DNA from: Pseudorhizobium tarimense
Lineage (GTDB): Bacteria > Pseudomonadota > Alphaproteobacteria > Rhizobiales > Rhizobiaceae
Direction of reading: 5' to 3'
NCBI RefSeq assembly: GCF_022968135.1
Contig: NZ_JALJRA010000014.1
Coordinates: forward strand, 62,001-126,000
DNA: 64,000 nt
The notes under the pieces are model-generated. The model searched no databases. It worked only from the letters and a program-made list of their open reading frames with translations, and was not told the DNA's origin. The stretch's first letter is position 1. Each line of letters starts with the position of its first letter. This document shows positions 11,046-39,739 of this stretch, piece after piece. A program made the position numbers and the translations under genes.

Positions 11046-12335
11046 TCAGCGCTTGGAGACCGGAACGTAGTCGCGCTGCGGTGCGCCGGTGTAGAGCTGG
11101 CGCGGACGGCCGATGCGCTGCTGCGGGTCTTCGATCATCTCTGCCCACTGTGCGATCCAGCCGACGGTACGGGCGAGCGCGAAGAGTACGGTGAACATCG
11201 TGGTCGGGAAGCCCATCGCCTTCAGCGTGATGCCCGAATAGAAGTCGATGTTCGGGTAGAGCTTCTTCTCGATGAAGTATTCGTCGGTGAGCGCGATGCG
11301 CTCCAGCTCCATCGCGACCTGCAGCAGCGGGTCATCCTTGTGACCGAGCTCGCCCAGAACCTCGTGCGTGGTCTTCTGCATGATCTTCGCGCGCGGGTCG
11401 TAGTTCTTGTAGACGCGGTGACCGAAGCCCATCAGGCGGAACGGATCGTTCTTGTCCTTGGCGCGGGCGATGTACTCTGGGATACGATCGACCGAGCCGA
11501 TCTCGGAGAGCATGTTGAGTGCCGCTTCGTTGGCGCCGCCGTGTGCGGGGCCCCAGAGGCAGGCGATGCCGGCTGCGATGCAGGCGAACGGGTTTGCACC
11601 CGAGGAACCGGCCAGACGAACCGTCGAGGTGGACGCATTCTGTTCGTGGTCGGCGTGCAGGATGAAGATGCGGTCCATGGCGCGCGCCAGAACCGGGTTT
11701 ACCTGGTACTCCTCGCACGGCACAGCAAAGCACATGCGCAGGAAGTTCGAGGCGTAGTCGAGGTCGTTCTTCGGATAAACGAAGGGCTGACCGATATGGT
11801 ACTTGTAGGCCATCGCGGCGATCGTCGGCATCTTCGCAATCATGCGCAGCGATGCGACCATGCGCTGATGCGGATCAGTGATGTCGGTGGAGTCGTGGTA
11901 GAAGGCTGACAGCGCGCCGACGCAGCCGCACATGACGGCCATCGGATGCGCATCGCGGCGAAAGCCGGTGAAGAACCGGGACATCTGCTCGTGCACCATC
12001 GTGTGGTGCGTGACGCGGTAGTCGAAATCCTTCTTCTGTGCCGCCGTCGGCAGTTCGCCGTAGAGAAGCAGATAGCAGGTTTCGAGGAAATCGCCGTGCT
12101 CGGCAAGCTGCTCGATCGGGTAGCCGCGGTGTAGCAGGATACCTTCGTCGCCGTCGATAAAGGTGATCTTGGATTCGCAAGAGGCGGTCGAGGTGAAACC
12201 TGGATCGTAGGTGAAGGCGCCGGTCTCCTTGTAGAGGCTGCCGATGTCGATCACGTCCGGGCCGAGGGTTCCCGATTTGACAGCGAGGTCGACCTTGTTG
12301 TCACCCACTGCCAAGTTTGCGCTTTTATCCGTCAT
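11046..12335 (-). CDS. gltA: Citrate synthase
   Basis: Condenses oxaloacetate with acetyl-CoA at the entry of the TCA cycle; cytoplasmic. 429 residues, the type II hexameric length. The catalytic His regions are visible as [12 protein letters not shown] and [15 protein letters not shown], and the catalytic Asp in NIDFYSGI. I start at [10 protein letters not shown] (ATG at 12335) because a strong GGAGGATC lies just upstream; the frame continues to 12380 without support. Convergent with lpxB across a shared terminator. Confidence 0.97.
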
Positions 12336-12402
12336 GCTGATCCTCCAACCTGTTGGCGGCGTGGCGTCCCAAAACGCCACAAGAATTTAAGCGTAGGATG
12401 TA

Positions 12403-12430
12403 GCTATATGATCCGGCGGCTGCTGCCAAG
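12403..12430 (-). promoter_or_regulatory. Putative sigma-70 promoter for gltA
   Basis: On the minus strand, CTTGGC is followed after 16 bases by TATAGC, close to the alphaproteobacterial housekeeping consensus (CTTGAC and TATAAT-like). It lies about 70 bases upstream of the gltA ATG. Assigned by eye only. Confidence 0.35.
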
Positions 12431-12448
12431 CACTGCTGATGTCTAATT

Positions 12449-14032
12449 GTGCAACGCGGAAATCACCTTTGCCTCCGGCACTTGAATGCAGTTAAGAAAC
12501 AGTCACAGCGGCGGGACGAAGCTGGATGTTCCCGGCTGGCGACACAGGTTTGGGTTGCGTTTCAAGAGGCTCAGTTGCATGCTCGGGTAGTGGAGCCGGG
12601 GCCGCCGCCGATGCCGCAGGGCAATGTGGTCGTTGAGAAAACAGATCCGGCCGCGGCGTCATCGCTCGGGCTGGAGAAGTTTCCGCTGCCTGCTCCAGAC
12701 GAGGCCGGCCGCTATGTGCTCCAGCATCGTCCGCAGCCGCCCGACCTAGCTCCGTCAGCTTAGCTCGATCCTTGATGCATGGATCTTCCATGTCGGTGGA
12801 TCGGCTCCGGGTTCTTTTCGAGGCCGAGGCGGCCTTTGGGCATACTTCTTGTTGGTGCCGGTTCTGGTCGCCGCCGGTGCCGTCACCTGGTTTTCGCTAC
12901 CCGTCGAGCCTCCGGCGGTCTTCATGCTGATGGTCTTTGGCTTGCTTTCGCTCAGCTGCTTCTCCGCCCACTGGATGAGAGGCTATGCGCCTCCCTTCGG
13001 CGTCGGGGCCGCTCTTTTTCTCGCTGGAGCCGTACTGCGCAGGTTGCGACTTCGCGGGCAGGAACAATCCTCTTGAACGGACCGGTGCCGACGATGATGG
13101 CGGGCGAGGTCGAGCGAAGGGAAGCAGCAGGCGAGGGCCGCTGGCCCTATCCCTAAAATGCGGCACACCTTCGAGCCGCCGCTAAAGCGGCCGCCGGAGC
13201 ATGTCGTACTGCTGGTCCGCTCGGACTGCATACCATTTGATGCAGGGACACCCTCCGCGGCCGGGCGAGATTGTCGCCGCCATCCGGTCCCGCACTTCCC
13301 GGGCTGAATGACTTTGCCTTCAGCGCATTTTTCGACAGGATCGGTGCGGTCGGCTTCCTCTACGGAGCCCCGGCGCAAATAGAGGCGCCGGAACTGAGTT
13401 GGTACGAGCAGAAAAAGCCACCGCCCGACATCCTCATATCGGATGACGGTGCGCTGGTTGCCCTCGTTGGACCAGCCGCGGCCACCAACCGCGCCCGCCC
13501 GCCTTCCTTCATCTGCGATCAGTGGCAGCGCGCTCATTGGCTCGCTACGCCGCTTCCTTCAGCTGTGTCGCCGGGTGGTGACGGTCCGCTCCTGCCGAAA
13601 GATCGGTGACAGGTACTCGAACCGCAGCAATTGACGGCACTAAGAAAGGCGATGGCGCAAGACCTCGCGGCGGCAGGGGAACCTCCGGGTGGTTTCACCT
13701 GTCGCAAGAGCTTGTGGTGCGTCGCCAAAACGAAGGAGGGGGTGAAGCCCGCGAGCGTCGAAGACAGTCGCATCACGGGCCTCGGCTGCGACCTTGCCGG
13801 TCTCCTTGTTACATGGCGTGCTCGGTTCGAGGAGTGCCGCTCCGGCGCTCTGCTGGTCTCCGGCAACGCGTTGCGCAAGACCGGTGCCCTTGAGATCAGC
13901 CTCGGCGGCAGCACAAACCCTTCACGATGGAACGCCAACGCGGCCATTGCCGGAGCGAGACGGCCTTGGACCGAACATCGCCTCTATGACTGGCGCAGCG
14001 ACCGCGCCGAAGAGCGATCCCTATGTCGCTGA
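12449..14032 (+). pseudogene. comEC: comEC/rec2 DNA-uptake channel gene, decayed and internally deleted
   Basis: ComEC is the inner-membrane channel for DNA uptake, normally 700-800 residues. Here recognisable pieces lie in several frames. A proline-rich N-terminus (LEKFPLPAPDEAGRY) is in frame 2. Then come the first membrane helices in frame 3 (AYFLLVPVLVAAGAVTWFSL, 12840 on), a GEVERREAAGEGRW piece near 13105, and KRPPEHVVLLVRS near 13190. The OB-fold segment LSPPSGPALPGLNDFAFSAF starts at 13271. This passes directly into C-terminal sequence (KPPPDILISDDGALVALVG, 13415 on), an in-frame TGA at 13607, and the tail to WTEHRLYDWRS. The competence membrane domain and the metallo-lactamase metal motifs are absent. 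Several frameshifts plus an internal deletion make it non-functional. Confidence 0.82.
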
Positions 14033-14041
14033 CGCGCCTGA

Positions 14042-14761
14042 TCAGTGGTAGCGGCGAATGAGGCCGACCAGCTTGCCCTGGACCTTCACGCGGTCCGCCG
14101 GCAGGATGCGTGTTTCATAGGCGGGGTTTGCGGCTTCCAACGCAATCGAGGCGCCACGGCGACGGAAGCGTTTCAAGGTCGCCTCTTCGTCGTCCACCAG
14201 TGCCACGATGATGTCGCCCGGGCCGGCCGTCTGCCCGTTGCGAATGATGACCGTATCGCCGTCGAGGATCCCGGCTTCGATCATCGAATCGCCCTTCACC
14301 TCCAGCGCATAATGCTCGCCGGCACCCAGCATTTCCGTAGGAACGGCAATGTCATGCGTGTTGTTTTGGATAGCCGAGATCGGCACGCCGGCCGCGATAC
14401 GACCCATGACGGGAACCGTGGTGCTGGTGCCCTCGTCGTTGGCGGCAGCCTTCACCGGCGCGGCCGGTGCGGGCTTCGGCTTGCCCAGGCTGCCTTCGAT
14501 GACGCTCGGGGAAAATCCGCGGCGCGGTTGCAGGCTGCTCGTATAGGCCTCGGGGAGCTTGATGACTTCCAGCGCACGCGCCCGGTTCGGAAGGCGACGG
14601 ATGAATCCGCGCTCCTCCAGTGCCGTGATCAGCCGGTGAATGCCCGACTTGGAGGCGAGGTCAAGCGCGTCCTTCATCTCGTCGAAGGAGGGCGGCACGC
14701 CCGATTCCTTCATCCGCTCGTGAATGAAGAGAAGCAGTTCCTGCTGTTTGCGCGTGAGCAT
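14042..14761 (-). CDS. lexA: LexA SOS repressor
   Basis: Represses DNA-damage genes and self-cleaves when RecA is activated. 239 residues: N-terminal winged helix (1-65, [17 protein letters not shown]), linker, and S24-peptidase domain. The cleavage bond is Ala124-Gly125 in RIAAGVPI; the catalytic dyad is Ser159 (KGDSM) and Lys197 (EATLKRF). The length is typical of the long alphaproteobacterial form. ATG 14761 matches the family start; an 18-codon upstream extension overlaps the operator region. Its 3' end meets the comEC remnant. Confidence 0.96.
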
Positions 14762-14791: not shown

Positions 14792-14821
14792 GAACAGAAT
14801 GTATCTGTTCCACATGTGTTC
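14792..14821. promoter_or_regulatory. LexA operator (SOS box) upstream of lexA
   Basis: GTTC-N7-GTTC at 14807-14821 (GAAC-N7-GAAC on the lexA strand) is the alphaproteobacterial LexA site. Just beside it, GAAC at 14792 and GTTC at 14807 form a palindrome with an 11-base spacer, giving three half-sites in 30 bases. It lies 31-60 bases upstream of the lexA ATG and implies autoregulation. The divergent VOC gene starts about 90 bases away and could also be affected. Confidence 0.75.
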
Positions 14822-38805: not shown

Positions 38806-38828
38806 GCAGCGACCGGAAAGAGCCGTCC

Positions 38829-39739
38829 ATGTCCAGAATTGCCGATGTCAACGGACGCTACGTCCCGCATGCTGATGCGGCAATCCAGATCGAGGACCGC
38901 GGCTTCCAGTTTGCCGACGGCGTCTACGAGGTCTGAGAAGTCCGGGCCGGCTTCATCATTGATCTGACCCGCCATCTCGACCGGCTCGACCGTTCGCTGC
39001 GCAAATTGCGGATCGCCCCTCCGATGGCACGGGCACCGCTGATCGCCGTCATCCGCGAGGTTCTGCGCCGCAACCGGGTGACAAACGGCATCTTCTATCT
39101 GCAGGTGACCCGCGAGACAGCCCGCCGCGACCATTTCTTCCCCTCTTCCGACACGCCGCCGACCCTGACGATCACCGCCAAGTCTGTGGACCCGGCGCCG
39201 ATGCAGCGCAAGTGTCGCGACGGCATCCACCTAATCATCGTCCCCGAAAATCGTTGGGACCGGGTTGATATCAAGACGGTCGGCCTGCTCCCGAATGTTC
39301 TGGCGAAGCAGCAGGCGCGCGACTCCGGCGCCCAGGATGCGATCTTCATCGACCGCCATGGCAATGTCACCGAGTCGGCTTCTCGAACGTCTGGATCGTC
39401 AGCCGGGATGGGGCACTCGTCACTCGCCCTGCCGAGCACGGCATCCTGCAAGGCGTCACCCGTACCACGGTCCTGGACGTGGCGGCCAAGCTCGGCGTGG
39501 CGATGGAGGAGCGTGAGTTTTCGAAAGACGAGATGCTCGGTGCGCGCGAAGTTTTTTTGACGTCCGCCACGGGCAGCTGCGTTCCCGTTGTTGCCGTCGA
39601 CGGGCAGCCGATCGCCAACACCCTGGATCCATGGGCTCAATATGAGGGGCGCCTTTTTGCACATTGCGGAAAAGACGACGATTTGATAACGAGGTTTTTG
39701 GGGGAGGGAAGCACGAGGGCGCTTCCCGGTCATCTCTGA
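38829..39739 (+). pseudogene. D-amino-acid aminotransferase-like gene (class IV), broken
   Basis: Reads as a class IV PLP aminotransferase (D-alanine/branched-chain type). ATG 38829 opens with SRIADVNGRYVPHADAAIQI and GVYEV, then an in-frame TGA at 38934-38936 where relatives have Cys. The same frame continues (DLTRHLDRLDRSLRKL, GIFYLQVTRETARRDHFFP, TVGLLPNVLAKQQARDSG) to VTES near 39377. There it shifts to frame 2: GFSNVWIVSRDGALVTRP, HGILQGVTRTTVLDVAAKLG, up to VVAVDGQPIAN. The last 40 or so residues no longer resemble the family. One nonsense change, one frameshift and a lost C-terminus make a working enzyme unlikely. It lies between trkA and hfq. Confidence 0.88.

Follow-up and report, generated by a model that had tools for sequence, protein, structure and literature searches.

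The interval between gltA and lexA in Pseudorhizobium tarimense raises the question whether a single gene, comEC, has died there or whether a whole route of DNA uptake has been given up. ComEC is the membrane channel for bacterial DNA import, DprA loads RecA, and ComM is a helicase. A preliminary description of a window of 64,000 nucleotides (the whole stretch of DNA analyzed) had assigned positions 12449-14032 to a comEC relic and had proposed that this uptake route was lost. Our analysis points, with a probability of roughly 0.87, to a recently dead comEC in a lineage that would have lost ComEC-dependent DNA import, its dprA, comM and comF being broken as well. In the reception of gene transfer agents (GTAs) by Rhodobacter, ComEC, ComF and ComM are reported to import the DNA and DprA together with RecA to integrate it (PMC10883770), and mutation of comEC is reported to abolish transformation in Liberibacter crescens (PMC8513845).

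The interval between gltA and lexA

The two neighbors of the interval are intact. On the left, gltA (citrate synthase; 11046..12335, minus strand) has an open reading frame that is listed from a GTG at 12380, the likely start being the ATG at 12335, and its DNA identity to same-genus genomes and named rhizobia is 79.8-89.5% (34 of 39 loci measured). Its conserved upstream region (12381..12470, no strand assigned) is retained, as seen in a MAFFT alignment with the genomes G064, G068, G029 and G009. On the right, lexA (14042..14758, minus strand) begins with the ATG at 14758, its frame being listed also from an ATG at 14815, and the LexA protein is 90% identical to those of the best named relatives. 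With both frames open, the retention of gltA and lexA on the two sides stands as first described. The distance between them is 1661 bp; in the four nearest relatives it amounts to 2703-2724 bp.

The relic DNA was aligned with the gltA-lexA interval of G064, G068, G029 and G009. Its 5' end (12611..12763, plus strand) comprises a conserved ATG and 50 codons, followed by a stop; the relatives align with ATG-CCG-CAG at 12611 (MAFFT), and the listed open reading frame 12449..12763 terminates at this first stop. An N-terminal membrane/OB-fold (DUF4131) region (12845..13382, plus strand) was delimited by tblastn, alignment and a codon trace, and is followed by a deletion junction (13383..13397, plus strand) and a C-terminal domain (13395..14030, plus strand). 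The intact ComEC of G064 matched the C-terminal piece (window 13358-14002) with 58% identity (E 9e-82) and the N-terminal piece (from 13037) with 46% identity (E 2e-34) in tblastn, far above chance, which bears out the ComEC-like character given to these pieces before. The relic is thus confirmed, but it starts at the conserved ATG at 12611 and ends near 14030.

As had been proposed, the OB-fold segment runs straight into the C-terminal segment. The junction maps to ~13394/13395, where bases 1026-2057 of the G064 interval (1032 bp, 344 codons) are absent together with the entire Competence domain; both sides are in the same frame, and the alignment with G064 has an extra 12-base gap immediately upstream. 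No Competence domain is left at the locus, in agreement with the reported lack of the competence membrane domain. Besides this large deletion, the relic is disrupted by three stops and by no fewer than four small frameshifts. The codon trace against G064 changes frame at ~12845, 13037, 13166, 13247 and 14013, and the list of open reading frames places stops at 12761, 13154 (13154-13156) and 13607, the last being the TGA (13607-13609) already noticed in the C-terminal domain. Since the alignment is poor before ~12845, frame changes in that part were left uncounted. The pieces had been said to occupy at least three frames: all three phases are indeed traversed, but the well-supported matches alternate between two only, and the third phase is seen in the poorly aligned stretch 12721-12844 and the final 28 bases. 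The lesions are deletions and small indels, with no large insertion in the alignment. A single ComEC frame (~700-930 codons) is absent; in most members of the genus, this frame has 698-944 codons.

Neither PF03772 nor PF13567 had a match anywhere in the genome (50 contigs with 4,860,135 bases; completeness 99.93), and no second comEC was found in this draft. PF03772 was present in 56 of the 57 genomes of the genus, the window genome being the sole miss, in 56 of 60 relatives in a second sample, and in 382 of 393 genomes of a family sample with a completeness of at least 95%, where partial matches (such as the relics of G266 and G377) were counted. The 11 misses in the family are the window genome, four genomes of 1.0-1.5 Mb from one genus, one genome of 0.9 Mb, G110, G173, and G196, G418 and G455, all of one genus. 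G110 is without comEC and also without a good lexA match, and an assembly gap may explain this. The possibility that the relic region has a plasmid copy was considered and dropped; one record was retrieved, covering 6% of the query. With an orthologous site and sequence, disabling lesions and no second copy, window positions 12611-14030 between gltA and lexA are, judged from the sequence, a comEC pseudogene.

The deleted domain and the age of the decay

The frame of G064 has 864 codons, with DUF4131 at residues 138-291 and Competence at residues 345-634 (Pfam). The deletion spans approximately residues 305-648 of this frame and accordingly removes the whole channel domain and little besides. 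The OB-fold domain DUF4131 is usual in ComEC, although not universal; its region at the locus is spread over several frames, the best fragment matching PF13567 with an E of 0.86.

The metallo-lactamase motifs had also been counted among the losses. They are indeed absent from the locus, but their loss as part of the lesion was rejected, since the intact rhizobial ComECs examined are likewise without these motifs or Lactamase_B. The latter was absent from all three intact ComECs of the group searched with Pfam, and the HxHxDH metal motif from all 34 loci scanned (the longest frame of each, three of the 34 being relics themselves), with only an HRHYD near the C-terminus in five of the 34 rows, two of which are the same genome. 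The combination of DUF4131 with Competence is reported to be common among Alphaproteobacteria (PMC8513845), and parts of the beta-, gamma- and deltaproteobacteria are described as having acquired Lactamase_B in ComEC secondarily (PMC6299819).

The C-terminal tail of ComEC from a relative (L042) was modeled with a mean pLDDT of 79 (7 sequences). Its sequence profile found nothing relevant among solved structures (two antibody chains, E 0.33 and 0.52), and Foldseek returned no match at E <= 0.001. The top match in a second look (VIA) was 9ic4, the ComEC beta-lactamase-like domain of Moorella glycerini (Z 5.7, rmsd 4.3, 138 aligned), followed by ELAC2 (Z 4.4). Since a Z below 8 is middling, this match is suggestive only. 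As 9ic4 was the best second-look match and the relatives have neither Lactamase_B nor the metal motif, the C-terminal piece left in the relic probably derives from a metallo-beta-lactamase-like domain, in a metal-less form. The C-terminal domain of rhizobial ComECs (L042:5722-6369 and its equivalents, alignment A1) contains invariant cysteines and a conserved RPW...R.YDWR ending; it would appear to be metallo-beta-lactamase-folded without the metal motif.

The relic was then compared with G064 by codon position, giving identities of 0.671, 0.757 and 0.427, as against 0.644, 0.711 and 0.432 between the intact comEC genes of G064 and G068. Polarized changes at positions 1/2/3 were 21/21/15 on the branch of the relic and 19/18/18 on that of G064 (p 0.75). 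The values for dprA at positions 1/2/3 were 27-31/17-21/83-86, compared with 17-21/10-13/80-90 between intact genes, a slight excess of changes at positions 1 and 2; the pattern of comEC and dprA is still coding-like. Because the relic has kept this codon-position signature, its decay looks recent relative to the split from the congeners. The branch test gives no sign of long neutral drift, and the loss would therefore be young, or comEC was weakly constrained beforehand. Long neutral evolution of an ancient relic was discarded as unsupported, the branch counts being not different.

A persisting coding signature would also suit a relic that yields a small product with a new role, be it a fusion of the OB-fold with the C-terminal domain or a short membrane peptide (12849-13076). 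The large deletion is in frame and directly joins two non-membrane domains, and similar OB-to-C-terminal relics exist in G196 and G173. However, the joined frame is interrupted by frameshifts and stops, its longest open reading frames on the comEC strand are 112 and 133 aa long and have no match in Pfam, and the relics of G196 and G173, with the same N-piece-to-C-piece arrangement, likewise lie in several frames. Such a product is very improbable, and a dead comEC remains the preferred reading.

Partner genes and the background of broken genes

The genes dprA, comF and comM were profiled in twenty genomes, namely that of the window, six congeners (G064, G068, G029, G009, G061 and G066) and thirteen others picked for a damaged or interrupted comEC (G455 and G465 are apparently the same genome). 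In the window genome, where comEC, dprA, comF and comM lie on four draft contigs (C5, C47, C3 and C4), all four members of this competence or GTA-recipient set are broken at the sequence level. The dprA locus is in two frames, matches PF02481 at positions 3-113 of 212 only and lacks 561 bp internally compared with G068 and G064; the six congeners have a full-length match. The comF match covers positions 78-189 of 190 in a frame of 146 codons, and the frame is split, with three frame-breaking indels in the alignment, compared with a match of 1-189 in the six congeners. For comM, the best match (3e-4) is not specific. On contig C4, bases matching G064 up to 3247 directly abut bases matching 4420 onward, and the remnant consists of ~17 first codons fused to ~11 last codons, with 1172 bp missing compared with G064.

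Damage among the six congeners is limited to G064 and G061. While comM is full length in five of the six, it is damaged in G064 (profile positions 177-499, frame change), whose comEC, dprA and comF frames are open despite this; the damage may mark the onset of a decay like that in the window genome. From the interior of the comM of G064 (C34:270.6-272.0 kb; L157 3015-4458), ~90 codons are missing, and the reading frame changes. In G061 (R. deserti), in-frame stops interrupt comEC in its N-terminal part, and dprA, comF and comM are kept. Since each of these two genomes is damaged in a single gene, the genes need not fall together; G064 would suggest that comM goes first, and G061 that comEC does. 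G061 also carries an additional DprA-like gene at C3:212 kb.

The lesion calls rest on one assembly of the species, a draft in 50 contigs, and errors of assembly or sequencing might have made intact genes appear broken. Yet three deletions (0.56, 1.03 and 1.17 kb) whose flanks match well, together with indels in comEC, comF and dprA, are distributed over four contigs and are atypical of base-calling errors, which makes this explanation highly unlikely.

A further explanation is that comEC alone decayed by chance and that the damage to dprA, comF and comM belongs to an unrelated background of pseudogenes. The genomes G173 and G377 have a broken comEC and keep dprA, comF and comM, and the window genome has other pseudogenes, among them a dat-like relic and further flagged genes. 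As a control, genes of G064 were compared with the retrieved sections of the window genome, the regions being chosen around the competence genes. With a filter of at least 120 aa and a coding-like substitution pattern, in which dprA itself was excluded by the codon filter, 15 of the 271 genes of the control set were not intact in their core, three of the 15 being competence genes; three more genes were skipped at sequence ends. A looser first pass had flagged 34 of 286, many through start-site differences. All four pathway genes are thus broken, as against at most 12 of the 268 others (Fisher 8e-6, in a post hoc test), and some of these 12 are probably annotation artefacts. Moreover, full dprA and comM are missing alongside comEC in members of two other lineages, with R. 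mesoamericanum retaining full-length dprA-like matches. An isolated decay of comEC is accordingly improbable compared with a loss of the route.

The dat-like relic, which resembles a D-amino-acid aminotransferase gene, lies at window positions 38815-39640 between genes that we take to be trkA and hfq, and presumably is what its name implies; it has an in-frame stop and a frameshift. The contig of G064 has a match for the last part of this interval only.

Taken together, what was recently lost appears to be the uptake route as a whole, rather than one gene. The lost route proposed in the preliminary description is now the more credible, since not only the channel but also dprA, comF and comM are broken. 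As it would have no ComEC, ComF, DprA or ComM, the cell is expected to be incapable of natural transformation and of receiving GTA DNA by the ComEC route; in the ancestor, the four genes presumably formed one working route. The lineage would have ceased to need, or would have faced selection against, ssDNA import via ComEC. Once the constraint was gone, comEC, dprA and comM would each have lost their interior by a deletion sparing both ends, and comF would have been frameshifted; interior deletions would be expected if deletions into neighboring genes were purged. In most rhizobia, another use, or the uptake of free DNA, would presumably maintain comEC, and in this lineage that use would have ended. 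The reason for presuming such a use is that GTA genes may have disappeared from each of the four major nodulating lineages (PMC7363004), whereas comEC persists in most rhizobia.

Losses elsewhere in rhizobia and their meaning

The gltA-lexA interval was measurable in 34 of 39 loci, and its outliers among the named rhizobia were R. mesoamericanum STM3625 (L048, 582 bp), R. mongolense subsp. loessense (L067, 718 bp) and Rhizobium sp. R711 (L052, 2156 bp, frames broken). PF03772 had no match in the first two and a partial match in R711. Multi-lesion comEC relics were found at the same site in G196, G418, G173, G377 and G266. On a tree of GltA and LexA with 46 taxa, from which five of 51 loci were left out for lack of gltA, comEC relics occupy at least five places: the window, R. 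mongolense, a group of G418, G196, R. mesoamericanum and R711, G173, and G377 with G266. Several relics are separated by intact relatives, and the tree is weak at some of its inner nodes.

G196, G418 and R. mongolense are without full dprA and without full comM, and their comF is in two frames (G196) or weakly matched (G418 and R. mongolense). In R711, dprA is in multiple frames, comM is absent and comF is in one frame, and R. mesoamericanum lacks comM, has a weakly matched comF and keeps two full-length dprA-like matches. G266 is without comM only. Given this graded co-loss, which at its lower end includes G173 and G377, some of these genomes have lost comEC only and others most of the set or all of it. 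In R. mesoamericanum (G463, C7:526.7-530.0 kb), there are extra DprA-like genes, two of which adjoin a weak match to a ComF-like phosphoribosyltransferase; this group is perhaps a mobile or defence cluster.

In R. deserti (L041/L125, G061), comEC is in one frame with in-frame stops at reference residues 58 and 165, and in R. rhizogenes NBRC 13257 (L058) it is in one frame with an in-frame stop at reference residue 286. These stops may possibly be an early stage of comEC loss or a sequencing error, and both genes, which are short by longest frame, were not counted as relics. Single comEC frameshifts, which may be real or sequencing errors, are present in G457, G158 and G215 (L177 ~4300, L178 ~4210 and L180 ~4490), which were also left out of the relic count. 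Since each of these genomes has one frameshift, a programmed or phase-variable comEC frameshift was considered, and it was dropped as the three sites differ in sequence and have no tract in common.

With the intact rhizobial ComEC (DUF4131 and Competence, without Lactamase_B), the relic of the window shares the gltA-lexA locus, the start and the N- and C-terminal sequence, whereas its channel domain is deleted and its frame broken. The relics of L048, L067, L052, G196, G418, G173, G377 and G266 lie in the same interval and have wholly or partly lost the channel part, with a C-terminal remnant in most, but they have different junctions and separate tree positions. In the related group 'Candidatus Liberibacter', comEC is reported as truncated or cryptic, and that of two strains as non-functional in complementation; the remaining components of competence are described there as conserved (PMC8513845), unlike in the window genome, which has 4.86 Mb and broken dprA, comF and comM. 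In Piscirickettsia salmonis, comEC is reported to be dead across the lineage through transposable elements, with the other transformation genes kept intact (PMC12955456), in contrast to the deletions and small indels of the window relic. ComEC-like proteins are described as nearly universal, the loss of the whole protein in Proteobacteria being reported for endosymbionts and intracellular pathogens (PMC6299819). Among the matches listed in the open-licence literature, there was no account of a concerted loss of comEC, dprA, comF and comM in rhizobia. The loss of comEC is thus of a known kind, and what is added here is its concerted loss with the partners in a rhizobial genome of normal size.

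We tentatively propose, as a possibility that is less probable than its opposite, that comEC, comF, dprA and comM of rhizobia are one unit serving a scarcely described DNA-import route, which single lineages discard in its entirety, repeatedly and recently, sometimes perhaps with comM first. That the channel was lost along with its three partners, each at its own site, supports viewing the four genes as one rhizobial pathway. If this is true, the species and G064 would be a natural before-and-after experiment on the purpose of DNA import, and such pairs would be informative in a group thought to have lost gene transfer agents. Closely related intact and broken lineages would allow transformation, GTA reception and the use of DNA as food to be tested against one another.
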